34,622 nt of DNA, from contig JAMJVX010000038.1 in NCBI GenBank assembly GCA_023558315.1, forward strand, positions 1 through 34,622, written 5' to 3'. Source of the stretch: Flavobacteriaceae bacterium (lineage in GTDB: Bacteria; Bacteroidota; Bacteroidia; Flavobacteriales; Flavobacteriaceae). A program made the translations under genes and the position numbers. This document shows, piece by piece, positions 6,500 through 28,194 of this stretch. Within the stretch, counting starts at the first letter, position 1, and each line of letters starts with the position of its first letter. Below the pieces are notes generated by a model. The model was not told the DNA's origin. It was given only the letters and a program-made list of their open reading frames with translations, and did no database searches.

Positions 6500-6883
6500 T
6501 TAATTACTAATTAACGATTTGTAATCACTAACATTAAGCAAATTATCTTCGTTTAAATTTTCAGGATTGATTTTTATTTTTATAATCCATCCTTGTCCAT
6601 AAGGGTCAGAATTAATTTTTTCAGGGTTTTCTTCTAACTCTTTATTAGTTTCAATAATTTCTCCAGTAATAGGCATAAATAAATCAGAAACTGTTTTTAC
6701 TGCTTCTATTGTTCCGAAAACTGACTCAGCGTCTAATGTTTCTCCATTAGTATCTACTTCTAAATATACGATATCTCCAAGTTCTTTTTGAGCAAAATCT
6801 GTAATTCCAACGGTTACAATATCATCTTTAATTGAAACCCATTCGTGGTTTTTTGTGTATTTTAAATTTTCAGGGAAAGTCAT
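6500..6883 (-). CDS. gcvH: Glycine cleavage system H protein
   Basis: This 127-residue lipoyl-carrier protein is of full family length. The lipoylation site is Lys63 in [19 protein letters not shown], and the N-terminal KYTKNHEWV and the [14 protein letters not shown] segment are H-protein signatures. It carries the aminomethyl group from the P protein (GcvP) to the T protein (not in this window) on its lipoyl arm. The gene lies downstream of gcvP with an 85-bp gap that contains its own -7 box, so P and H may be made from separate as well as joint transcripts. Confidence 0.97.
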
Positions 6884-6905
6884 TTACGTTTAATAATTAT
6901 AAGGG

Positions 6906-6913
6906 CAAATATA
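6906..6913 (-). promoter_or_regulatory. -7 promoter element for gcvH
   Basis: Minus-strand TATATTTG is an exact TAnnTTTG match, ending 22 nt before the gcvH ATG. I see no clear -33 TTG. Confidence 0.5.
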
Positions 6914-6968
6914 TATAAATATTTAAGACCCTAATCTTAAATTATATTAAAATAATACTAATTTATAT

Positions 6969-9803
6969 TTAAGACTCGTACTCGCTAATATCTGGACAGG
7001 TGCAAATTAAGTTTCTGTCTCCAAAAGCTTCATTAACTCGTCTAACCGTTGCCCAAACTTTATTTTCTTTGATATAGTCTAATGGAAAAGCAGCTTCATT
7101 ACGAGTATAAGGATACGCCCAATTATCTGAGGCAATCATATTCAATGTATGTGGAGCATTTTTTAATAAATTATTTTCAGTATCATTAATATTTTGAATT
7201 TCATGATAGATATTGATTAAGGCATCACAAAAGGTATCAATCTCCTCTTTGTTTTCACTTTCAGTAGGTTCTATCATCATCGTATTGGGCACAGGAAAGG
7301 ATACAGTAGGAGCATGGTATCCATAATCCATTAATCTTTTTGCTATATCAATAACATCTATGTTTTTTTCTTTAAAAGTACGACAGTCTATAATCAATTC
7401 ATGAGCTACTCTGTTATTATTACCGACATAAAGAATATTAAAGTACTTTTCTATTCTTTTTTTTATATAATTGGCATTTAAAATTGCCACTGAAGTAGAC
7501 TTTTTAAGCCCATTTGTACCTAGAAGTCTTATATAACCATAAGAAATTAGAGAGACTAATGCCGAACCCCAAGGCGCTGAGGAAACAACAATATCCTTGT
7601 TCTCTGAGAACATAAAATGTGAAGGAAGAAAATCTTTTAAATGCGCTGCAACACATACTGGGCCTACACCTGGTCCTCCTCCACCATGCGGTATAGCAAA
7701 CGTTTTATGTAAGTTAAGATGACAAACATCAGCACCTATTATTGCAGGATTTGTAAGACCTACTTGTGCATTCATATTTGCTCCATCCATATAAACTTGC
7801 CCTCCATTTTCATGTATAATTGCTGTTATTTTCTGAATATTATTTTCAAATATTCCATGAGTGGATGGGTAAGTAATCATTAAAGCAGCTAAATTTTCTT
7901 TGTGTTCAATTGCTTTGGATTTAAGGTCTTCAATATCAATATTACCTTGAGCATCTGTTTTGACTACAACTACTTTCATTCCGGCAATAATCGCTGAAGC
8001 TGGATTAGTTCCATGCGCAGAAGAAGGAATTAGACAAATATTTCTGTGCAATTGATTTTTTGATTTCAAATATGCTTTTATAATTAACAGTCCAGTATAC
8101 TCTCCTTGTGCTCCTGAATTTGGTTGTAACGTGGTTCCAGCAAACCCTGTTATTTTTGAGAGGAATTGACAAAGGTCTTCCAACACTTTGCTATAACCAT
8201 TTGCTTGTTCGACAGGCACAAATGGATGAATATTATTCCATTGAGAATTACTAAGAGGAAGCATAAGGCTGGCTGCATTTAGTTTCATTGTACAAGAGCC
8301 TAGGGCTATCATAGAATGATTAAGAGAAATATCTTTTCTCTCTAATTTTTTAATGTATCTCATTAAAGATGTTTCCGAATGATACTTATTAAAAATAGGA
8401 TTTTGTAAATAAGTAGTTTTTCTTTGTAGAGATTGTGGGATTTTACTTTTATTCTCTAGTAAATTTATAGGGGTGAAATTTCTATCAATACAAGTTGAAA
8501 ACAATTCTATAAGTCTATTGATATCATTGATTGTAGTTGTTTCATTTATAGAAATTGCAACTTTATCTTCAGCAACATATAAAAGGTTTATATTATTTTT
8601 AAGAGCTAATGGACGAATTTTATCTACCTCTATATTTACCAATAAGGTGTCAAAGTAATTTTCATTTAATTGTGTGATTCCTAATTCTTTTAGTTTCTCA
8701 TCTAATGTAACCGCACTTTTATGAATTTTATTAGCAATGGCAAATAATCCATTAGGGCCGTGATATACTGCATACATACCAGCCATAACAGCAAGCAAAA
8801 CTTGAGCAGTGCAGATATTTGAAGTAGCTCTGTCTCTCTTTATGTGTTGTTCTCTTGTTTGTAATGCCATTCTAAGGGCGCTATTTCCATCGGTGTCTTT
8901 AGTTAGCCCTATGATTCTGCCAGGGATGTATCTTTTATATTCATCTTTACAAGCAAAAAAAGCAGCATGAGGACCCCCATAGCCTAAGGGAATACCAAAA
9001 CGTTGTGAGGTGCCAACGACAACATCAGCTCCTAGTTTTCCCGGGGCTTCTATTAATAATAAACTCATAATGTCTGCAGCGACAGCAACCTTAATACCAT
9101 TTGTATTCGCTTTTTCAATAAAGCTTTTAAAGTCAATTAAATTTCCAAATTTTCCTGGAGATTGTAAAATTGCTCCAAAATAATCTTCAGAATAATTAAA
9201 GGATTCTATAGATCCTTTTTCTAATTGTATATTATAATTAGAGGCTTTGGTTTTTAATACATCCCAAGTTTGAGGTAAAATATCATCTGCGACAAAAAAT
9301 TTAGTAGTTTTGTCTTTGTGTTTAGGCACTTGAATATTATATAAAAAAAGCATCGCTTCCGCAGCAGCGGTACTTTCATCTAAGAGAGAGGCATTTGCTA
9401 ATTCCATTCCAGTAAGATCGCATACCATCGTTTGATAATTCAAAAGTGCCTCTAATCTTCCTTGAGAAATTTCTGCTTGATAAGGAGTATAAGCAGTATA
9501 CCATCCGGGGTTTTCTAAAATGTTTCTTATAATTACAGAGGGTGAAATAGTAGGGTGATACCCCAAACCAATATAGCAATCATTTTGTTTATTTAATTTC
9601 CCTAAAGCGTGTATTTTTTTTAGAAAATCGTACTCACTAATCTCATCAACTATATTAAAATCTTTTTCATCCAGCATTATATCTTTTGGAATAATTTCTT
9701 GAATAAGTTGTTCAACAGAGTCTACATTTAAGGAATTTAACATCTCTGAAATACCGCTTTCAGTAGGGCCGATGTGTCTATCGCTATATTTTTTTATATT
9801 CAT
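6969..9803 (-). CDS. gcvP: Glycine dehydrogenase (aminomethyl-transferring), P protein
   Basis: This 944-residue protein is the full-length single-chain P protein, with the two halves (GcvPA- and GcvPB-like) fused. It has the N-terminal RHIGPTE motif and the PLP lysine at about residue 700 in LHKTFAIPHGGGGPG. It also has SSAHGTNPASAIIAGM and YPSTHG, which are conserved around the cofactor. It decarboxylates glycine and passes the aminomethyl group to the lipoyl arm of GcvH, encoded next on the same strand. The start at 9803 (MNIKKYSDRHIGPTE) matches the family N-terminus and is preceded by an exact -7 box. Its promoter lies back to back with that of the divergent UbiA-like gene. Confidence 0.97.
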   Translation of the reverse strand: MNIKKYSDRHIGPTESGISEMLNSLNVDSVEQLIQEIIPKDIMLDEKDFNIVDEISEYDFLKKIHALGKLNKQNDCYIGLGYHPTISPSVIIRNILENPGWYTAYTPYQAEISQGRLEALLNYQTMVCDLTGMELANASLLDESTAAAEAMLFLYNIQVPKHKDKTTKFFVADDILPQTWDVLKTKASNYNIQLEKGSIESFNYSEDYFGAILQSPGKFGNLIDFKSFIEKANTNGIKVAVAADIMSLLLIEAPGKLGADVVVGTSQRFGIPLGYGGPHAAFFACKDEYKRYIPGRIIGLTKDTDGNSALRMALQTREQHIKRDRATSNICTAQVLLAVMAGMYAVYHGPNGLFAIANKIHKSAVTLDEKLKELGITQLNENYFDTLLVNIEVDKIRPLALKNNINLLYVAEDKVAISINETTTINDINRLIELFSTCIDRNFTPINLLENKSKIPQSLQRKTTYLQNPIFNKYHSETSLMRYIKKLERKDISLNHSMIALGSCTMKLNAASLMLPLSNSQWNNIHPFVPVEQANGYSKVLEDLCQFLSKITGFAGTTLQPNSGAQGEYTGLLIIKAYLKSKNQLHRNICLIPSSAHGTNPASAIIAGMKVVVVKTDAQGNIDIEDLKSKAIEHKENLAALMITYPSTHGIFENNIQKITAIIHENGGQVYMDGANMNAQVGLTNPAIIGADVCHLNLHKTFAIPHGGGGPGVGPVCVAAHLKDFLPSHFMFSENKDIVVSSAPWGSALVSLISYGYIRLLGTNGLKKSTSVAILNANYIKKRIEKYFNILYVGNNNRVAHELIIDCRTFKEKNIDVIDIAKRLMDYGYHAPTVSFPVPNTMMIEPTESENKEEIDTFCDALINIYHEIQNINDTENNLLKNAPHTLNMIASDNWAYPYTRNEAAFPLDYIKENKVWATVRRVNEAFGDRNLICTCPDISEYES

Positions 9804-18649: not shown

Positions 18650-19888
18650 TTACCGTATTTTATATAGAAAAGTAAATATAAAAATACTGAATATAAGCAG
18701 ATTAGACCCTCCGTAACTGATGAAAGGTAATGGGATTCCTACTGTAGGCAATAAGCCAAGAGTCATGCCAATATTAATAGTGAAATGAAAAAATAGGATT
18801 GCTGCTAAAGAATATCCAAAAAACAGATTGTGTTTATCTTTTTGCTTTTCCGCTAAAAGAACAATCCTAGCTATTAATATTGAAAACAAAATTATTACAA
18901 GGATACTTCCAAAAAATCCCCATTCTTCTGAAATGTTTGTGAAGATATAATCAGTAGATTGTTCAGGCACAAAGTTCCCTTTATTTTGAGTGCCTTGTAA
19001 ATATCCTTTTCCTTCAATTCCTCCAGAACCAATAGCAATTTTGGATTGATTAATATTATAGCCAATACCTCTTACGTCATATTGTTTTCCTAGAATAATA
19101 TTAAATCTATCTCTATGTCTTTGTTCAAAAACATTGTTAAAAATATAATTTGTAGAATAAACAACGGCACAGGTAGAGACTATACCAATAATGAGTTTTA
19201 GAAAAAAGTACTTTCTTTTTTTATTCGTAAAAAAGAAGAAAAGATAAACAATGAACAAAAAAATAGAAGCCCCTAGCATTAAGTTATACATGGGTAATAA
19301 CAACGATAAAATAAATATAGTGATGAGCCCTATAGGAATGATAAAATACACATAACTCAAGCCAGCTCTTAATAAAGGTAAAAGGAATGCGAAAAATATA
19401 ATCGCAGAACCTGGGTCTGGTTGTAAAATTATAAGAATTACTGGGATAATAATAATGCTAAAAATAGTGACTTGCCCTTTTAAATTATTTAAGTTTGCAT
19501 TATATCCACTTAATATTTTTGATATATATAGTGCGGTAGTAACTTTAGCAAATTCTGCGGGTTGAAAACTAAATCCTCCAATTTTATACCATGATGTAGA
19601 ACCCGATATTGTGGTTCCAAAAATAAATACTCCAATGAGTAAAAAAATACTAGTAATATAATAGAGGTTACTATGTTTTATAAATTCTTTAAAATTAAAA
19701 TAGCTAAGAATAAAACAAATAATTAAACTTATTATAAAAAAAAACAATTGCTTTCCTGCTAAAGAATTTAAACTGAAAATAGTACTTGAATTATTGTAAC
19801 TTGAAGAATAAATAGCAATAAATCCAATACAAACCAAAAGGAAATATATAATCAATATTAAACTATCTAATTTATAAAACTTGTTCAT
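18650..19888 (-). CDS. rodA: Rod shape-determining protein RodA (SEDS glycosyltransferase)
   Basis: This 412-residue polytopic protein of the FtsW/RodA/SpoVE (SEDS) family has about ten membrane helices. Diagnostic segments are FQPAEFAKV near residue 109, LQPDPGSAIIFFA, the extracytoplasmic segment IAIGSGGIEGKGYLQGTQ, FVPEQSTDYIFTNISEEWG and GIPLPFISYGGSN. SEDS proteins polymerise peptidoglycan glycan strands and work with a class B PBP. Its start overlaps the mrdA stop by 4 bp, so the PBP2/RodA pair is translationally coupled. It is the last gene of the elongasome operon. Confidence 0.96.
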   Translation of the reverse strand: MNKFYKLDSLILIIYFLLVCIGFIAIYSSSYNNSSTIFSLNSLAGKQLFFFIISLIICFILSYFNFKEFIKHSNLYYITSIFLLIGVFIFGTTISGSTSWYKIGGFSFQPAEFAKVTTALYISKILSGYNANLNNLKGQVTIFSIIIIPVILIILQPDPGSAIIFFAFLLPLLRAGLSYVYFIIPIGLITIFILSLLLPMYNLMLGASIFLFIVYLFFFFTNKKRKYFFLKLIIGIVSTCAVVYSTNYIFNNVFEQRHRDRFNIILGKQYDVRGIGYNINQSKIAIGSGGIEGKGYLQGTQNKGNFVPEQSTDYIFTNISEEWGFFGSILVIILFSILIARIVLLAEKQKDKHNLFFGYSLAAILFFHFTINIGMTLGLLPTVGIPLPFISYGGSNLLIFSIFIFTFLYKIR

Positions 19889-21741
19889 TCGTTTATTGTA
19901 AAGGGTTTATTACTGAACGGTTTAGCGTATTCTTCTAAGAGACTTCCTTCAAGCATTCTATCTTCTAATTCCTTTCTAGATATAGTTTTATTTAAATATT
20001 TTTCTATCATTAAACTTGCGATAGGAGATGCCCATCTGGCACCCCAATATCCATTTTCTATAAATACGGCAATCGCAATTTTCGGGTCTTCTTTAGGAGC
20101 AAAAGCAATAAATATAGAATGGTCTGTTAATTGTACTTTTTTTCCTTTTAACTTTATAAAATTTTCTACAGTTCCTGTCTTTCCGCAAACCTCAATTCCT
20201 GGAATTTGTGCGTTTCTGGCGGTACCATTTTTTACTACATTAAACATGCCATTAATTACAGTTTCAAAATGCTTTTCATCTATAGGGATATCTTTTTTCT
20301 TAAATCTATTGTCTATAGAATTTTCGTCTATTTTTTTAACAAAATGGGGTGTATAGAAGTGCCCTCTGTTTGCAATTGCTGCAGTTAAATTTGCTAGTTG
20401 GATAGGTGTAGTCAAAATTTCTCCTTGCCCAATTGCGTTAGAAATAGTAGTAACGGTTCGCCACTTTTTTTCTCCATAAACTCTATTATAATATTTTGAA
20501 GTGGGAACCAAACCTCTTTGTCCAGAAGGTAAATCATACCCTAAGTAATTCCCCAATCCAAAACTTCGCAAATATTTAGCCCAATTATCCATCCCTTCAG
20601 AAGAAGTTGGATATTTATCTAAAATACGGGTATATGTTTTGCCAAAAAAGGTATTACACGATTTATAAATAGCGCTTAATAGGTTGTTTTCCACTTGTCC
20701 ACAATGGCATCTCATAAATCGGTATGGAGTATAATAAAATCCACCATAACAAGAAAACGTTGTTTGAGGCCTAATGACTCCTTCTTGTAATCCAATTAGT
20801 GCATTTACTACTTTAAAAGGAGAACCTGGAGGATATACTGCTTGAGTAGCTCTATCAAAAAGGGGTTTAGCGATGCTGTCATTTGCCAATAGTTTATAAT
20901 TAGCATTTCTCTTTCTACCAATCAATAAATTTGGATTAAAACTAGGAGCGGAAACCATCGATAATACTTCTCCTGTGCTAGGTTCAATGGCAACTATACC
21001 CCCTCGCTTATTTTTCATTATTTCTTCTCCATATTTTTGTAATTCAATATCTATCGTTAAATAAATATCTTTTGATATACTTGGTTCAATATCAAATTTT
21101 CCATTTTTATAAGAGCCTATAATTCTATTAAATTTATCTTTTTGAAAAAATTTTTCTCCTCTGGCTCCCCTTAAATATTTTTCATAACTTTTTTCAATAC
21201 CTCTTCTGCCAATTTGTTCACCCAAATGATAATATGCATCTTTTTTTAAATCATTTTCATTTACCTCACTTAAATAACCTAATATATTAGCAGCACTATG
21301 GATTTTATAATCTCTCAATGAATTTTTAGTAATTGAAAAACCAGAAAATTGCCACATTTTTTCTTGTAATAATGCGTATTTACTTTTAGAAATTTGACTT
21401 TCGATTACATAAGGGAGTCTTACAGAAAATCGAGTTGCCTCTCTCATTTTCATTTTGAGCTTTTCTTTAGAAATATCTGTTAATTTGCAAAGCGTTAACG
21501 TATCAAAAGACCTTGTTTTTTCCATAACTACTACTAGATTGTAGTAGAGTCTGTTTGAAGCTAGGAGTGTATTATTTCTGTCATATATTAAACCTCTGTC
21601 TGGGTAATCATACACTGTCATTACAGCGTTATTTTCAGATTTTCTTAGGTATTCATCATTGTTTAGTTGTAAGGATAATAGTCTTACCATAAAAGTAATG
21701 ACTATGAGTATTATTAAACCTAGAAACGTATACTTAGTCAT
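19885..21741 (-). CDS. mrdA: Penicillin-binding protein 2 (elongasome transpeptidase)
   Basis: This 618-residue class B PBP has an N-terminal membrane anchor (about 4-22), a PBP dimerisation/pedestal region (YPDRGLIYDRN, about 46-56) and a transpeptidase domain. The active-site triad is complete: SxxK at Ser307-Lys310 (PPGSPFK), SxN at SCN (361-363) and KTG in EVCGKTGTVEN near residue 525. It cross-links peptidoglycan during cell elongation together with RodA. Its start overlaps mreD by 8 bp and rodA overlaps its end, so mreD-mrdA-rodA is one tightly coupled unit. Confidence 0.97.
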   Translation of the reverse strand: MTKYTFLGLIILIVITFMVRLLSLQLNNDEYLRKSENNAVMTVYDYPDRGLIYDRNNTLLASNRLYYNLVVVMEKTRSFDTLTLCKLTDISKEKLKMKMREATRFSVRLPYVIESQISKSKYALLQEKMWQFSGFSITKNSLRDYKIHSAANILGYLSEVNENDLKKDAYYHLGEQIGRRGIEKSYEKYLRGARGEKFFQKDKFNRIIGSYKNGKFDIEPSISKDIYLTIDIELQKYGEEIMKNKRGGIVAIEPSTGEVLSMVSAPSFNPNLLIGRKRNANYKLLANDSIAKPLFDRATQAVYPPGSPFKVVNALIGLQEGVIRPQTTFSCYGGFYYTPYRFMRCHCGQVENNLLSAIYKSCNTFFGKTYTRILDKYPTSSEGMDNWAKYLRSFGLGNYLGYDLPSGQRGLVPTSKYYNRVYGEKKWRTVTTISNAIGQGEILTTPIQLANLTAAIANRGHFYTPHFVKKIDENSIDNRFKKKDIPIDEKHFETVINGMFNVVKNGTARNAQIPGIEVCGKTGTVENFIKLKGKKVQLTDHSIFIAFAPKEDPKIAIAVFIENGYWGARWASPIASLMIEKYLNKTISRKELEDRMLEGSLLEEYAKPFSNKPFTINE

Positions 21742-22240
21742 TTTTTACTCTTTGAAGTAAGGTAATATAAATTAATATTAAAATATATGTAAAAGGAAGA
21801 GTCAAGAAAGTATATTTTAGAATGAGTAGAGAATGTTTAAAACTGAAATATTCTATCGTAAAAAATATCAGATGATGAAGAAGGACTATTAAGAAAATAA
21901 ATAATAGTTTTTTATCCACTCTTATATCATAAATAGAGAGTTGAAGTTTTTCATAACTTCTTCCAAAAATAAAGGCTAATAAATAGGGTCTAAGAAAGCC
22001 TAAAAAAAGGCAAGATATAGTATGTGTTCCAGGAGATTGTGTAAGTAAATCCATTATAAAACCTATTAAGAATGAAAAAATCAAAAAGAAAGAATTTAAT
22101 TTATTGAAACTATAAAAAACAAAAATGACAACATATAAAAATGGATTTACTATTCCAAAAATATTGAGGTTGTTAAAAATAAATACCTGAAGTAGTAGTA
22201 AAATAATTGTGTTTAGTAAAAGTGTTAGAATTTGATTCAT
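21734..22240 (-). CDS. mreD: Rod shape-determining protein MreD
   Basis: This 168-residue protein has five hydrophobic segments. LIGFIMDLLTQSPGTHTISCLFLGFLRPY matches the MreD signature, with the conserved D-x-x-x-x-x-x-G-x-x-x segment after the second helix. It is a membrane partner of MreB/MreC in the elongasome. In most flavobacteria I know of, mreD follows mreC directly; here an XRE regulator and a MutS-like gene lie between. The XRE gene ends only 24 bp upstream on the same strand, and I find no TAnnTTTG element in that gap, so mreD is probably read through from the XRE promoter. Confidence 0.88.
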   Translation of the reverse strand: MNQILTLLLNTIILLLLQVFIFNNLNIFGIVNPFLYVVIFVFYSFNKLNSFFLIFSFLIGFIMDLLTQSPGTHTISCLFLGFLRPYLLAFIFGRSYEKLQLSIYDIRVDKKLLFIFLIVLLHHLIFFTIEYFSFKHSLLILKYTFLTLPFTYILILIYITLLQRVKND

Positions 22241-22264
22241 CTTAAAATATAGGATTAAGAGTGC

Positions 22265-22666
22265 TTAGAGGGGGCTGTTTTTTAACGCAGTAATTATCTC
22301 GTCTTTGGCTTTGATGACTTCTTCCATCTCTTGCAACTTACTCTCGTAAAGCGCTTCTATCTTTTGTTGTTGTTTTTCGTTGGTCGCACAGACCTTCTGT
22401 ATTTGATGCGCAAAGATATTTCCATTATTTTTACTAGAATCATTGTTGTTATTAAACACCTCAGAAGTATTGATATTTAAGAGTTCTTCGATGGAGGTTT
22501 CTAAGATGTCGGCAATCTCGTAGAGGCGTTTGACGGAAAGCCCCGTTTTTTCATTTATCATTCGCACATAAGACCCTTGTGTAATACCTAATTGGTCGGC
22601 GACATACTCCTGAGTGATGTATTTCTGTAAACGAATTTTTTTGATGGTTTGTCCCAAATCTTTCAT
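22265..22666 (-). CDS. XRE-family helix-turn-helix regulator with C-terminal coiled coil
   Basis: This 133-residue protein has an N-terminal Cro/C1-type helix-turn-helix (about 6-62: LGQTIKKIRLQKYITQEYVADQLGITQGSYVRMI, ending EIADILETSIEELLNI). An Asn/Ser-rich linker (about 66-83) and a charged coiled-coil tail (about 95-130) follow. The tail probably mediates dimerisation or partner binding. It looks like a free-standing DNA-binding regulator, not an enzyme. Hand counts on its coding lines give about 40% GC, against roughly 20-30% for mreD and the MutS-like gene, so it appears to be a recent arrival. A perfect inverted repeat overlaps its own -7 box, suggesting autoregulation. It lies 24 bp upstream of mreD on the same strand. 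Confidence 0.9.
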   Translation of the reverse strand: MKDLGQTIKKIRLQKYITQEYVADQLGITQGSYVRMINEKTGLSVKRLYEIADILETSIEELLNINTSEVFNNNNDSSKNNGNIFAHQIQKVCATNEKQQQKIEALYESKLQEMEEVIKAKDEIITALKNSPL

Positions 22667-22686
22667 AACTTAAAAATGAGTTCGTG

Positions 22687-22694
22687 CAAAGATA
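22687..22694 (-). promoter_or_regulatory. -7 promoter element for the XRE gene
   Basis: Minus-strand TATCTTTG is an exact TAnnTTTG match ending 20 nt before the XRE ATG. It overlaps the left arm of the inverted repeat at 22690-22713. Confidence 0.6.
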
Positions 22695-22713
22695 CTACTA
22701 TTTTAGAGTATCT
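22690..22713. promoter_or_regulatory. Putative XRE operator: perfect 7-bp inverted repeat
   Basis: AGATACT, a 10-bp spacer and AGTATCT form a perfect inverted repeat that overlaps the -7 box of the XRE gene and extends towards its -33 region. A dimeric regulator bound here would block initiation, the classical arrangement for autorepression by XRE proteins. The match of protein to site is inference; no second copy was noticed near the divergent MutS-like gene. Confidence 0.5.
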
Positions 22714-22817
22714 ATAAAAAAAGATGTGATGTAAAATACATATATTAAGGCGTTAAATAAATTAAGCATTAAATGATTTGGCTTTAAATAAACTTTTCTC
22801 AATTTTGATTCAATTTA

Positions 22818-22825
22818 TATTTTTG
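22818..22825 (+). promoter_or_regulatory. Upstream candidate -7 element for the MutS-like gene
   Basis: TATTTTTG is an exact TAnnTTTG match but ends 98 nt before the GTG start. The site at 22881 fits the usual spacing better, so this would be a second, distal promoter at most. Confidence 0.25.
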
Positions 22826-22880
22826 TTTATTTAATAAAAAATATTAACTTATCTTTAATTTAATAATAAAGAATAAAAAA

Positions 22881-22888
22881 TAGATTTG
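22881..22888 (+). promoter_or_regulatory. -7 promoter element for the MutS-like gene
   Basis: TAGATTTG is an exact TAnnTTTG match ending 35 nt before the GTG start at 22924, close to the spacing seen for other genes in the window. Confidence 0.45.
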
Positions 22889-22923
22889 AAAAACTATTCA
22901 AATTATAAAAAAACAAAATTAAA

Positions 22924-24696
22924 GTGATAGAATATCTAAAATTAAAAAAACAATATTTAAACGATTTTAATCGATTAAATAAAAGTTACAATCTAATTAG
23001 TGCTCTTAGGTTAATAACTGCAATTACCTTAGTTTTTTTTGCATATAAATCTTTTAAAACAGATGATTATTTATTTATATCCTTAAGTATTTTAGGGTTT
23101 ATACTTTTTATTGCTTTATTGAAAATACATGAAAAAATATCATTTAAGAGACGAATAAAAAAACAATTAATAGCTATTAATAATAATGAAATAATCTATT
23201 TAAAAAATGAAGGAATACCTTTTGAAAATGGTTCAGAATATATTGATTTCAAACATTTATATGCTTATGATTTAGATTTTTTTGGAGAAAATTCATTGTT
23301 TCAAAACTTAAATAGAACAGCAACTTATATAGGTAGTAAAAGATTATCCGAACGATTACTTACCTTATTAAAAAATCAAGGAATAAAAGCAAATCAACAA
23401 GCTATTAAAGAATTGTCTAAAAAAATTGAATGGAGGCAATACTTATATTCATTAGCAAAAATAGTAAAAGACAACAGAGAAAATTATCAAAAATTAATTG
23501 AATGGACAGAGGCAAAGCAAGTTACTTTTACTAAGTTTTTTAATGTACTAATTTATATTATACCCATTTTATTTTGTTTATCAATTATCCCTTATTTTAT
23601 AACTAACTACCTGTTTTTCATTTATATATCATTTACTTTTTTCCTGATAAATTTAGTGGTATTAGTAACACAACTAAAAAGAATAAAAAAAGAACTTATA
23701 GAATCTGATAATATCAATGCAATTATCAAACAATATGGGTTAATTATTGAAGCAATAGAAATCGAAAATTTTAAAAGTGAAAAATTAAACCAGTTAAAAG
23801 AAAAACTAAACCACAAATCTTGCCTAGCAAGTAAACAAATAAAAAAACTATCCTCATTATTTTCTAGTTTGCAAAGCGTTCAAAATGGAATAGGTGCCAT
23901 TTTATTTAACGGTGCATTTTTATACCATATTCATACTTTAAATACTTTATTAAAATGGAAAAAAGAATATTCAACTCATATAAAAGGTTGGTTAGATATT
24001 ATTGGTGAATTTGAAATGCTTAATAGTTTAGCAAATTTCTCTTATAACAATCGTGCTTTTGTATTTCCTAATCTAAATGAAAACTATAACATTGAATTTG
24101 AAGAATTAGGACACCCACTCATAACAAAAGAAAAAAGAATTTGTAATGATATACAATTCAAAAAAAGTAATCTCATAATTCTAACAGGTTCAAATATGTC
24201 TGGAAAAAGTACTTTTTTGAGGACTCTAGGGGTAAATATGATTCTTGCAGGAATCGGCGCTCCAATTTGTTCCACTAAAGCAAATATTCATCCATTAAAT
24301 GTAATTGTTTCTATGAGACAAGTAGATTCACTAAATGATAGTGAATCTTATTTTTTTGCAGAAGTGAAAAGGTTAAAACGTATAATTGACAAATTAAAAT
24401 CAAAAACTTGTTTTGTATTACTTGATGAAATACTAAAGGGGACAAATTCAGATGACAAACAAAATGGAACGATAGAATTTATTAAAAATATTATCTCTAA
24501 AAACGCAATAGGCACCATTGCTACACATGATTTAGAAGTTTGTAAAACAACAAATGATTATCCAGAAAAGCTTATTAATAAGTGTTTTGAATCAAAAATT
24601 ATTAATAATGATTTACTATTTGACTATAAATTAAAAGAGGGTATTTGCAAAAATAAAAGTGCTACTTTTTTAATGAAAAAAAATGGAATAATTTAA
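22924..24696 (+). CDS. Membrane-anchored MutS-family ATPase (MutS domain III-V paralogue)
   Basis: This 590-residue protein has two hydrophobic hairpins (about 27-66 and 203-248), a MutS core-like segment between them (SLFQNLNRTATYIGSKRLSERL, about 124-145) and a C-terminal MutS ATPase. Walker A is TGSNMSGKST (421-430), Walker B FVLLDEILKGT (497-507) and the switch His lies in ATHDLEV (533-539). The N-terminal mismatch-reading domain with the Phe-x-Glu motif and the Smr nuclease domain of MutS2 are both absent, so it is neither MutS1 nor MutS2. Similar two-hairpin MutS proteins occur in Bacteroidetes, and their function is not established. The start is GTG: an in-frame stop lies at 22906-22908 and no ATG lies between. 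It runs against the mre operon. Confidence 0.88.
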   Translation: MIEYLKLKKQYLNDFNRLNKSYNLISALRLITAITLVFFAYKSFKTDDYLFISLSILGFILFIALLKIHEKISFKRRIKKQLIAINNNEIIYLKNEGIPFENGSEYIDFKHLYAYDLDFFGENSLFQNLNRTATYIGSKRLSERLLTLLKNQGIKANQQAIKELSKKIEWRQYLYSLAKIVKDNRENYQKLIEWTEAKQVTFTKFFNVLIYIIPILFCLSIIPYFITNYLFFIYISFTFFLINLVVLVTQLKRIKKELIESDNINAIIKQYGLIIEAIEIENFKSEKLNQLKEKLNHKSCLASKQIKKLSSLFSSLQSVQNGIGAILFNGAFLYHIHTLNTLLKWKKEYSTHIKGWLDIIGEFEMLNSLANFSYNNRAFVFPNLNENYNIEFEELGHPLITKEKRICNDIQFKKSNLIILTGSNMSGKSTFLRTLGVNMILAGIGAPICSTKANIHPLNVIVSMRQVDSLNDSESYFFAEVKRLKRIIDKLKSKTCFVLLDEILKGTNSDDKQNGTIEFIKNIISKNAIGTIATHDLEVCKTTNDYPEKLINKCFESKIINNDLLFDYKLKEGICKNKSATFLMKKNGII

Positions 24697-24782
24697 AATA
24701 ATATACAAAATGAAAAAACTACTTTTAAATCAAAATGGGTATTTAGAAAACGTGAAGATTTAATTTGGGTAATCTTAAAAAT

Positions 24783-25595
24783 TTAATTCATAATATTTAA
24801 AGAATCTATTGTGTTAAATTCTTCTGCCATAACATTTTTTATAATATATACATTTTCTAAATGTGTTAAATCATTAAAAAGCGCTACTTCTATTTTATAG
24901 TGATTATTAAACACATTTTCTTCTATTTTTGAAACTGTACCAATAGGAATTCCAACAGGAAAAGCTGAAGAAATTCCTCCAGTGATTACAGTATCTTTTT
25001 CTTGTAATTTATCTAATAAAGGTAAATCCAACAATTCCATTTTCTTGAAACTCCTTCCATTCCAGCTTAAAGAGCCAAAACCATTCTTGTTTTTTATTTT
25101 AGCATTGATTTTGAAATTTAAGTTTAGAATAGAGATTACACTAGAAAAATTATCAGAAGTATAATTGACGATCCCTACAATTCCTTTTTCTGAAACGACA
25201 CCCATTCCTTCTTTCACTCCTTCTTTTTTCCCCTTATTTATAATGAGGTAATTTTGAGATTTGTTAAAACTACTTTTAAGCACTTGAGAACTCATGTAAC
25301 TAAATTGATTATTTTTATTAAAATAATATTTAGAAGTAGTTATTTTATTTTCTAGTATTTGATTTTTTAAGGATGTGTTTTCTGAAAGTAACTCTGTATT
25401 AATATCTTTTAAATTCAAATAATTAGTGAGATTTTTATAGGGAATATTGATTGTGTATGTAATGTCACTACTCAATCTAAATAATTGTGTGTGGTGATAA
25501 TTGCTTTTTTGATTTAAAATAATGAAAGATATAACTAATAAAATAATAAATAAAAAACCATTTTTAAGAAAAAATGGCTTAGAATAAGAATTCAT
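24783..25595 (-). CDS. mreC: Rod shape-determining protein MreC
   Basis: This 270-residue protein has one N-terminal membrane helix (about 8-26), a short coiled coil (about 60-85, LNTELLSENTSLKNQI) and a periplasmic double beta-barrel domain. In that domain YLIINKGKKEGVKEGMGVVSEKGIVGIV and DTVITGGISSAFPVGIPIGTV are family signatures. MreC links MreB filaments to PBP2 in the periplasm. It starts 7 bp after mreB. The expected next gene, mreD, is displaced about 2.5 kb by the XRE/MutS-like insertion. The 86-bp gap to the convergent MutS-like gene holds only a weak AAGATT/AATCTT hairpin near 24755-24776. Confidence 0.94.
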   Translation of the reverse strand: MNSYSKPFFLKNGFLFIILLVISFIILNQKSNYHHTQLFRLSSDITYTINIPYKNLTNYLNLKDINTELLSENTSLKNQILENKITTSKYYFNKNNQFSYMSSQVLKSSFNKSQNYLIINKGKKEGVKEGMGVVSEKGIVGIVNYTSDNFSSVISILNLNFKINAKIKNKNGFGSLSWNGRSFKKMELLDLPLLDKLQEKDTVITGGISSAFPVGIPIGTVSKIEENVFNNHYKIEVALFNDLTHLENVYIIKNVMAEEFNTIDSLNIMN

Positions 25596-25602
25596 ATTTT
25601 TA

Positions 25603-26631
25603 TTATTTAATTAAGACTTTAGAATAACTAGGTATATCTTTAAGAATAATTCCAGTACCTCTTACGACAGTCTGAAGTGGGTCTTCAGCGATAGAGACCA
25701 TTAAATTTGTTTTTTCAGCTAAACGTTTATCTAAACCTCTCAATAAAGCACCTCCTCCAGCTAAGAAAATACCTGTTTTATATATATCTGCAGCTAACTC
25801 AGGGGGCGTCTGTGATAATGCTTCCATAACAGCATCCTCTACTCTTATAATTGATTTATCCAAAGCCTTTGCCATCTCAATATATGTGATTTCTTTTTTT
25901 GCTGGACGACCCGTCAATAAATCTCGTCCTTCAACAGAAATAGGAGCGGGAGGGTTTTCTAATTTAGTGGTTGCAGAACCTATGGCTATTTTCATTTCTT
26001 CTGCTGTACGGTCTCCAATATACAAATTATGTTGTCTTCTCATATAATAGACAATATCATTGGTAAATATATCTCCTGCTATTTTGATAGATTTATCACA
26101 AACAATTCCAGATAAAGCTATAACAGCAATTTCAGAAGTACCACCACCTATATCTATTATCATACTTCCCTTAGGTTGAGAAATATCAATACCCATACCT
26201 ATAGCAGCAGCAATTGGTTCATGAATTAAATAAACTTCTTTCCCGTTTACTCGTTCAGCTGACTCTCTAACAGCACGCATTTCTACTTCAGTAATACCTG
26301 AAGGAATACATATTACCATCCGTAAGGAGGGAGCGATTACTTTTCTTTTTAAAACAGGAATACTTTTTATAAAAGCATTTATCATTAATTCAGTAGCATT
26401 AAAATCAGCAATTACACCATCTTTTAGTGGTCTAATAGTTCTAATATTATCATGCGTTTTACCTTGCATAATGCTAGCCTCTTTTCCTATTGCTACTATT
26501 TTATTTGTCAATTTATCTAGCGCAATGACTGAAGGGCTATCAATCACAAGTTTATCATTATGTATAATTAGTGTGTTAGCTGTCCCTAAATCGATAGCTA
26601 TTTCTTCTGTAAAAAAATTAAATAATCCCAT
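25603..26631 (-). CDS. mreB: Rod shape-determining protein MreB (bacterial actin)
   Basis: This 342-residue actin-fold ATPase is of full family length. It has phosphate-1 loop DLGTANT (14-20), EPIAAAIGMGIDI, phosphate-2 loop IDIGGGTSEIAVI and the adenosine motif FLAGGGALLRGLDKRL. MreB forms membrane-associated filaments that direct sidewall peptidoglycan synthesis. It heads the mreBC unit and has its own exact -7 box in the 36-bp gap after purH. Confidence 0.98.
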   Translation of the reverse strand: MGLFNFFTEEIAIDLGTANTLIIHNDKLVIDSPSVIALDKLTNKIVAIGKEASIMQGKTHDNIRTIRPLKDGVIADFNATELMINAFIKSIPVLKRKVIAPSLRMVICIPSGITEVEMRAVRESAERVNGKEVYLIHEPIAAAIGMGIDISQPKGSMIIDIGGGTSEIAVIALSGIVCDKSIKIAGDIFTNDIVYYMRRQHNLYIGDRTAEEMKIAIGSATTKLENPPAPISVEGRDLLTGRPAKKEITYIEMAKALDKSIIRVEDAVMEALSQTPPELAADIYKTGIFLAGGGALLRGLDKRLAEKTNLMVSIAEDPLQTVVRGTGIILKDIPSYSKVLIK

Positions 26632-26654: not shown

Positions 26655-26662
26655 CAAAGATA
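26655..26662 (-). promoter_or_regulatory. -7 promoter element for mreB
   Basis: Minus-strand TATCTTTG is an exact TAnnTTTG match ending 23 nt before the mreB ATG. Its upstream half would lie in the last codons of purH. Confidence 0.5.
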
Positions 26663-26667
26663 TAAAA

Positions 26668-28194
26668 CTAATGTTTAAAATGTCGTATTTTGGTGAATAT
26701 CATTGCGATGTTTTTTTCATTACAAAAATCTATTGACAATGAATCTTTAATAGAACCTCCAGGTTGAATTACATTTTTAACTCCTTCGTTATAAGCAACT
26801 TCGATACAATCTGGAAAAGGAAAAAAAGCATCACTTGCCATAACTGCTTCTTTCAAAGAAAAATTAACGTTTTTTGCTTTTTCAATAGCGTGATTTAAGG
26901 CGTCAATTCTTGAGGTTTGACCTGTTCCTATTCCCACTAATTTTTTGTCTTTCGCTAAAACTATTGCATTTGATTTTGTATGCTTACATACTTTTGAGGC
27001 AAATATTAAATCTTCAATTTGTTCTTTTTGAGGATTTTTATTTGTTACTATTTCAAAATCTGTTTCGCTATCTGTTTTATAATCTTTCTCTTGTAAAAGA
27101 TATCCATTTAAACAAGTTCGAATGTGTTGTGAATTAGTAGGAATTTTATTTAAGACTAATAAAATTCGATTTTTTTTCTGTTTCAAAACAGCTAGACTTT
27201 CTTCATCATAATTGGGAGCAATGACTACTTCACAAAACAACTCATTTATTTTAGTAGCGGTTTCTAAATCTATAGTTTTATTTGTTACTAAGACTCCTCC
27301 AAAAGCAGATACGGGGTCACACTCTAAGGCATTTTCATAAGCACTTTTAAGGGTGTCTCTTGTAGCAATACCACAACAATTATTGTGCTTTAAAATAGCA
27401 AATGTAGGTTTTTCTTCAACAAACTCACTGATAACATTTATTGCAGTATCTATATCTAACAGATTATTATATGAAATTTCTTTTCCATGAAGTTGTTTTA
27501 ATATCTCTCCTAAATGCCCTAAGAAAATTCCTTTTTGATGAGGATTCTCACCATATCGTAAAGAATTTTGAGGCAAATGAATAGGATTTTTTTCAATTGG
27601 CTCTACATCTTCAAAATACTCATAAATAGCCGTGTCATATTGTGAAGTTATTTTAAAAGCTTTAGTAGCAAAATATCTTCTTTCTTCTAAAGTAGTGTCA
27701 CCTCCAGATTTACAAAGTATTTCATAAAATGAGTTGTAATCTCCTTTATTACAAAGACAAAAAACATCATTAAAATTTTTTGCTGCAGCTCGAATAAGGG
27801 AAACCCCTCCAATATCTATTTTTTCAATTAATTCAGATTCAGTACAATTAGAAGCTAATGTCTCTTGAAAAGGATATAAATCTACACACACTAAATCAAA
27901 AGAGGGAATAGCATATTTCAAAACCTCTTCTTTATCTAACTCATTATTTCTTCTATTTAATATTCCTCCAAAAATTTTAGGATGTAATGTTTTTACTCGT
28001 CCCCCCAAAATAGATGGATAGGAAGTAATTTCTTCAACGGGGATAACTTTTATTCCTAAATCTTCTATAAATTTTTGTGTTCCACCAGTAGAGTATATTT
28101 CTACGCCCTGTTCATTTAATTTGTTTAAAATATTCTCTAATCCTTCTTTATTAAAAACGGATATAAATGCAGTTTGAATTTTTTTGGAGTTCAT
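26668..28194 (-). CDS. purH: Bifunctional AICAR formyltransferase / IMP cyclohydrolase
   Basis: This 508-residue PurH is of full length. Residues 1 to about 140 form the IMP cyclohydrolase (MGS-like) domain with STGGTQKF and GGRVKTLHPKIFGG. The rest is the AICAR transformylase domain with LRYGENPHQ (212-220) and the catalytic Lys269-His270 pair in AILKHNNCCG; SDAFFPFPD and IQPGGS near the C-terminus complete the active site. It performs the last two steps of de novo purine synthesis in the cytoplasm. It is followed 36 bp later by mreB, the usual order in Bacteroidetes. Confidence 0.97.
   Translation of the reverse strand: MNSKKIQTAFISVFNKEGLENILNKLNEQGVEIYSTGGTQKFIEDLGIKVIPVEEITSYPSILGGRVKTLHPKIFGGILNRRNNELDKEEVLKYAIPSFDLVCVDLYPFQETLASNCTESELIEKIDIGGVSLIRAAAKNFNDVFCLCNKGDYNSFYEILCKSGGDTTLEERRYFATKAFKITSQYDTAIYEYFEDVEPIEKNPIHLPQNSLRYGENPHQKGIFLGHLGEILKQLHGKEISYNNLLDIDTAINVISEFVEEKPTFAILKHNNCCGIATRDTLKSAYENALECDPVSAFGGVLVTNKTIDLETATKINELFCEVVIAPNYDEESLAVLKQKKNRILLVLNKIPTNSQHIRTCLNGYLLQEKDYKTDSETDFEIVTNKNPQKEQIEDLIFASKVCKHTKSNAIVLAKDKKLVGIGTGQTSRIDALNHAIEKAKNVNFSLKEAVMASDAFFPFPDCIEVAYNEGVKNVIQPGGSIKDSLSIDFCNEKNIAMIFTKIRHFKH

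Follow-up and report, generated by a model that had tools for sequence, protein, structure and literature searches.

Organization of the Locus

The stretch of DNA analyzed here, referred to as the window, comprises 34,622 nucleotides and is a whole contig (C38; JAMJVX010000038.1) of a draft Flavobacteriaceae genome (GCA_023558315.1; 1.56 Mb, 83 contigs, 92% complete). It harbors all six genes of the purH-mreB-mreC-mreD-mrdA-rodA operon that is conserved in the family, intact and in the usual order and strand, yet divided into two halves. In the first half, purH (26668-28194, minus strand), the upstream neighbor in the conserved order, is followed by the mreB open reading frame (25603-26631, minus) and by mreC (24783-25595, minus), which is intact, encodes 270 aa (MreC profile, 1.2e-38) and is now the last gene of the mreB-mreC half. 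The second half starts with mreD (21734-22240, minus), an intact gene for a 168-aa protein scoring above the cut-off of TIGR03426, and continues with mrdA, encoding PBP2 (19885-21741, minus; intact as judged from the open reading frame and comparison with relatives), and with rodA at its distal end (18650-19888, minus; intact, as judged from the open reading frame and tblastn synteny with relatives).

The two halves are separated by an insert of 2,542 bases between the mreD start and the mreC stop (22241-24782), which carries two genes. The first shape gene past the insert, mreD, is directly preceded by a gene for a 133-aa XRE-type protein (22265-22666, minus), with an HTH_3 domain (E = 3e-12) and a coiled-coil-like C-terminal tail. 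A region of 257 bases (22667-22923) lies between this gene and a divergently oriented gene for a MutS-like protein of 590 aa (22924-24696, plus; MutS_V, E = 3.5e-24), the GTG start codon of which is backed by the family alignment. The MutS-like gene and mreC converge on a gap of 86 bases (24697-24782). Open reading frames and profiles thus agree with a previous sequence-only reading, which had described purH-mreB-mreC and mreD-mrdA-rodA on the minus strand, parted by an XRE gene (minus) and a MutS-like gene (plus). The same reading took every shape gene to be intact, and this is borne out: mreB, mreC, mreD, mrdA and rodA are all present at full length, and MreC and MreD, at 270 and 168 aa, have lengths like those of their relatives (~258-295 and 165-188 aa), hence no shape gene was damaged. 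A short frame of 17 codons beginning with ATGAAAAAACTACTTTTAAATCAAAATGGG is found 3′ of the MutS-like gene (24709-24762, plus) and may be a remnant of a gene start that was brought in with the insert.

Conservation of the mreC-mreD Joint

For comparison, the mre locus was collected from 60 further genera of Flavobacteriaceae. The genes mreB, mreC and mrdA and the mreD position have the same order and strand in all 60, and no gene intervenes between mreC and mreD in any of them. In the 58 genera that could be read automatically, the spacing of mreC and mreD ranges from an overlap of 64 bases to a gap of 11 bases, an 8-base overlap being the most common arrangement, while in the remaining two the mreC match crosses a stop and the gene order is unchanged. 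In one of the 60 (G142), MreD is too divergent for a tblastn match, yet a 168-aa frame occupies the mreD position. The joint sequences were compared in 14 relatives. By contrast, mreC and mreD of the window are not adjacent but 2.54 kb and two extra genes apart, and the insert is absent from all 60 genera, so that the split is beyond chance variation. In a tree of MreB, MreC, MreD, MrdA and RodA, the window falls into a clade with 11 small-genome genera (support 100), each of which keeps the joint unbroken. Since the joint is unbroken throughout the 60 genera, these 11 nearest ones included, the break is a derived state that is so far unique within this sample. Within the limits of a draft assembly, the split is therefore real and rare, and represents a lineage-specific rearrangement. 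It had been proposed from the sequence that the cell-shape genes normally run uninterrupted and that the insertion abolished the usual coupling of mreC and mreD; both proposals hold within the family, as the overlap or abutment seen in the relatives is gone in the window, and the insert is not an ordinary feature of this interval. No report of mreC and mreD being split apart in Flavobacterium was found among the papers searched. Acquired genes between intact operon genes constitute an event of an ordinary kind, but here at an unusual place.

Two further variations of the mre locus were observed in the family. In a few genera (L064, L067 and others; G075, G086, G058, G050, and G006), the mreC match extends through one stop (TAA) into an open frame of ~441 aa, which may reflect an mreD that follows mreC immediately and in frame. 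Several species of the genus g142 (G228, G327, G331, and G378) have two or three copies of MreB, the extra copies being ~68-69% identical to MreB of the window.

Edges of the Insert and the Assembly

The edges of the insert carry an imperfect repeat, with one copy (AATTTGATTCATCTTAAAA; 22229-22247, plus) over the mreD start and the other (AATTTGGGTAATCTTAAAA; 24762-24780, plus) just past the mreC stop. The copies match at 16 of 19 positions (84%, three mismatches), a score that was reached by chance in 3-7% of matched comparisons (P ~0.03-0.07), and by eye the end of mreC and the start of mreD also share a shorter match, ATGAATyAAATT. Because the repeats are only marginally above chance, no target-site duplication is claimed. 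A mobile-element reading of the insert was likewise dropped, since neither the insert nor its immediate surroundings contain a transposase or an integrase.

As the genome is a draft in 83 contigs and the XRE gene is foreign in composition (see below), an error of the metagenome assembly could have joined the insert into the operon. Such a chimera would, however, need two false joins that leave the operon halves in register and preserve mreC and mreD to the stop and the start codon, respectively. Moreover, mreC is single-copy in this genome, no long duplicate of the insert occurs there (besides itself, it finds only AT-rich matches of <90 bases), and the MutS-like gene has the AT content of the host. 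An assembly artifact is hence considered very unlikely.

The MutS-Like Protein

The ATPase domain of the MutS-like protein is clearly recognized (MutS_V, 86.3 bits against a cut-off of 30.2), whereas the scores for the curated equivalogs stay far below their thresholds (NCBIfam MutS, 118.7 bits against 480; mutS2, 79.1 bits against 400), which assigns it to neither MutS1 nor MutS2. With MutS (MutS1) it has the core and ATPase fold in common, but it lacks a match to the mismatch-recognition and connector domains (MutS_I and MutS_II profiles, no match at E ≤ 1) and has two hydrophobic hairpins that are not seen in MutS. Similarity to MutS2 and KamC, a MutS-like reactivase ATPase, lies in the ATPase domain (NCBIfam E = 2.4e-22 and 2.5e-24), but the protein is far under both curated cut-offs, and the search with the Smr domain profile gave no match. 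A MutS frame of normal size (869 aa) is located on another contig (C54) of the genome.

An AlphaFold2 model of the protein (mean pLDDT 88.8) aligns with the MutS core and ATPase with a VIA-align Z of ~27 over ~390 residues, starting from residue 107, and Foldseek searches with the model gave E-values down to 4.5e-17. The structure comparison barely covered residues 1-106. Residues 1-93 of the model form a hydrophobic helical hairpin, and a second hairpin spans residues ~204-280. According to hydropathy, nearly all of 23 family members have hydrophobic segments around residues 22-74 and 200-252, and the family alignment has an invariant P-loop (G-x-N-M-x-G-K-S-T) and a D-E Walker B motif. The window protein thus belongs to a Bacteroidota family of membrane-anchored MutS-like proteins, with which it shares the length of ~590 aa, the domain layout with both hydrophobic stretches, the P-loop and an alignment over the full length, at 30-69% identity. 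Most likely, it is a membrane-anchored MutS/ABC-type ATPase that is predicted to have its substrate in or near the membrane and to take no part in mismatch repair. No sign of an action on the elongasome was seen in this analysis.

Database records of the 590-aa family in Bacteroidota (e.g., L098, L107, and L115, and the plasmid-collection matches H2 and H3) bear the name "MutS family DNA mismatch repair protein". This name looks misleading, given the predicted membrane hairpins and the missing mismatch-recognition domain. Among the papers searched, none was found to deal with this membrane MutS-like family. The split operon draws notice to a widespread family that is labeled as mismatch repair, yet resembles a membrane-anchored ATPase.

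Distribution and Ancestry of the MutS-Like Gene

At loci other than this one, 99 of the 149 family genera have a relative of the MutS-like gene, as do 72 of 247 genomes from the phylum; long relatives also occur in Parabacteroides and Bacteroides records. The window protein is 69% identical to the copy of a Formosa MAG, 59% to that of G016, 53% to that of G141 and 44% to that of G023, but only ~30-39% to the bulk of its family. In the MutS-like tree, it groups with the Formosa MAG copy (98/96), then with G016 (95/95), and together with G141 and G023 at 100/100, and this subclade is parted from the main family group, likewise at 100/100. When the scan was extended to 237 genera of the family, no more than 4 had a member of this subclade. 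G016 joins the window in the MutS-like tree, but is far from it in the elongasome tree, and none of the 11 sister genera has a MutS-like homolog at E ≤ 1e-40. The gene has a stable neighborhood in the genus g142, with universal-stress-protein-like and mnmE-like genes upstream (names taken from the sequence starts), while outside g142 the subclade loci share no common context and each copy has different neighbors. Only in the window does a copy lie inside the mre operon, unlike every other copy examined.

Because its subclade is rare and a homolog is missing from all 11 sister genera, the MutS-like gene was probably gained horizontally. With a GC3 of 0.15 it is as AT-rich as the host, so that it is the trees and the distribution that speak for its foreignness. 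The main alternative to a gain is old paralogy with differential losses, and formally the two look alike. In this case the MutS-like gene would be ancestral, would have been relocated to the joint within the genome and lost by the sister genera, and only the XRE gene would be foreign. While this fits with an old family that is widespread in the phylum and with the native composition of the gene, it demands several independent losses, given that a homolog is missing from 11 of 11 sister genera, and it places the window copy in a subclade otherwise made up of distant genera, outside the main clade of the family. We therefore regard vertical descent as unlikely, and horizontal gain of the MutS-like gene as the preferred reading.

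A separate association with a shape gene was noticed in G023 (L099, G023:C1:174900-192600, ~6649-9701), where rodA directly precedes the MutS-like gene of the window's subclade on the same strand and, in the longest reading, overlaps it. In this genome, which is among the 60 compared, rodA has moved from the mre locus, in which mrdA is followed by maf-like and bactofilin-like genes (L071). This adjacency was considered as a hint that the MutS-like gene is tied to the elongasome, but was judged to be a coincidence, since G500 of the same genus (L127) is without it and no other examined copy lies beside mre genes.

The XRE Gene and the Question of a Two-Gene Module

With 46.8 bits for HTH_3 against a curated cut-off of 23, the second gene of the insert encodes a helix-turn-helix regulator of the XRE/Cro-C1 type. 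In length and architecture it is like the stand-alone small XRE regulators of Bacteroidota (~115-150 aa, a helix-turn-helix plus a tail), but it has no clear ortholog among them and is distinguished by its place directly upstream of mreD. Its relatives are scattered and distant (29-53% identical): apart from the window's genome, 6 among 149 family genomes have one at E ≤ 1e-6, and 20 among 212 genomes of the class at E ≤ 1e-9. The six family loci, when opened, showed unrelated contexts. The composition of the gene is exceptional for the window, with a GC3 of 0.455 as opposed to 0.199 ± 0.031 in 29 other window genes (z = 8.3) and a codon-usage deviation of −0.43 per codon, compared with −0.06 to +0.05 in the other genes tested. 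Seen against the AT-rich MutS-like gene, GC3 and codon usage indicate that the two differ in origin or age, and we infer that the XRE gene either arrived on its own or had another donor, richer in GC.

The sequence-only reading had suggested that the XRE and MutS-like genes could travel together as a two-gene module, which would then have entered the operon as one unit, as a small mobile regulator/effector pair of a toxin-antitoxin- or defense-like kind. Indeed, the two genes are adjacent and divergent and have a common upstream region of 257 bases, like many regulator/effector pairs, and PADLOC returned matches for both. These matches are weak and non-specific, however, and a reading of the insert as a defense system was rejected. 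The pairing itself did not recur, with an XRE relative beside the MutS-like gene in 0 of 27 MutS-like loci, and the XRE relatives of the family are either on another contig than the MutS-like gene or >200 kb away from it, which disfavors a traveling pair, as does the strongly unlike codon usage. The viral contigs searched gave nothing closely related to the MutS-like protein; the XRE protein had no match in phages or viral contigs and only one weak match in plasmids, and where plasmid-collection records show long MutS-like matches, these are <40% identical. The suggestion of a module is thus unsupported, and we consider it highly improbable.

Transcription after the Split

Taken together, it appears likely that the purH-mreB-mreC-mreD-mrdA-rodA operon, which is otherwise conserved, received an insertion of laterally acquired DNA between mreC and mreD in this lineage. 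The MutS-like gene would have entered horizontally and the XRE gene on a separate occasion or from its other donor, one operon would have become purH/mreB-mreC and XRE-mreD-mrdA-rodA, and mreC and mreD would have ceased to be an overlapping, co-transcribed pair. The XRE gene and mreD share a strand, with 24 bases from the XRE stop to the mreD start. A pattern scan for TAnnTTTG, the sigma-A −7 box of flavobacteria (PMC9723704), found TATCTTTG at 22687-22694 (minus), ~20 bases before the XRE start, as a predicted promoter that would now transcribe XRE-mreD-mrdA-rodA. There is no TTG at −33 of this box, and such motifs often arise by chance, the window having 66 matches. Since mreB has a TATCTTTG box of its own at 26662 (minus), two units, namely mreB-mreC and XRE-mreD-mrdA-rodA, would be expected, and the predicted promoter suggests that the latter is now its own transcription unit. 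No intrinsic terminator was found in the 86-base gap after mreC, and read-through past mreC is possible.

For Escherichia coli, it was proposed that the activity of PBP2 is set by how MreC and MreD are balanced (PMC7793260), hence the uncoupling of mreC and mreD could matter. Given the near-invariant gene order in the family and the normal overlap of mreC and mreD, this naturally occurring split would be useful for testing if the co-transcription or the ratio of the two is of importance. It is conceivable, although doubtful, that the XRE gene was taken into use, with its own promoter driving, and the XRE protein perhaps autoregulating, mreD-mrdA-rodA apart from mreBC. If so, the MreC:MreD balance in this lineage would be under a new, acquired regulator.
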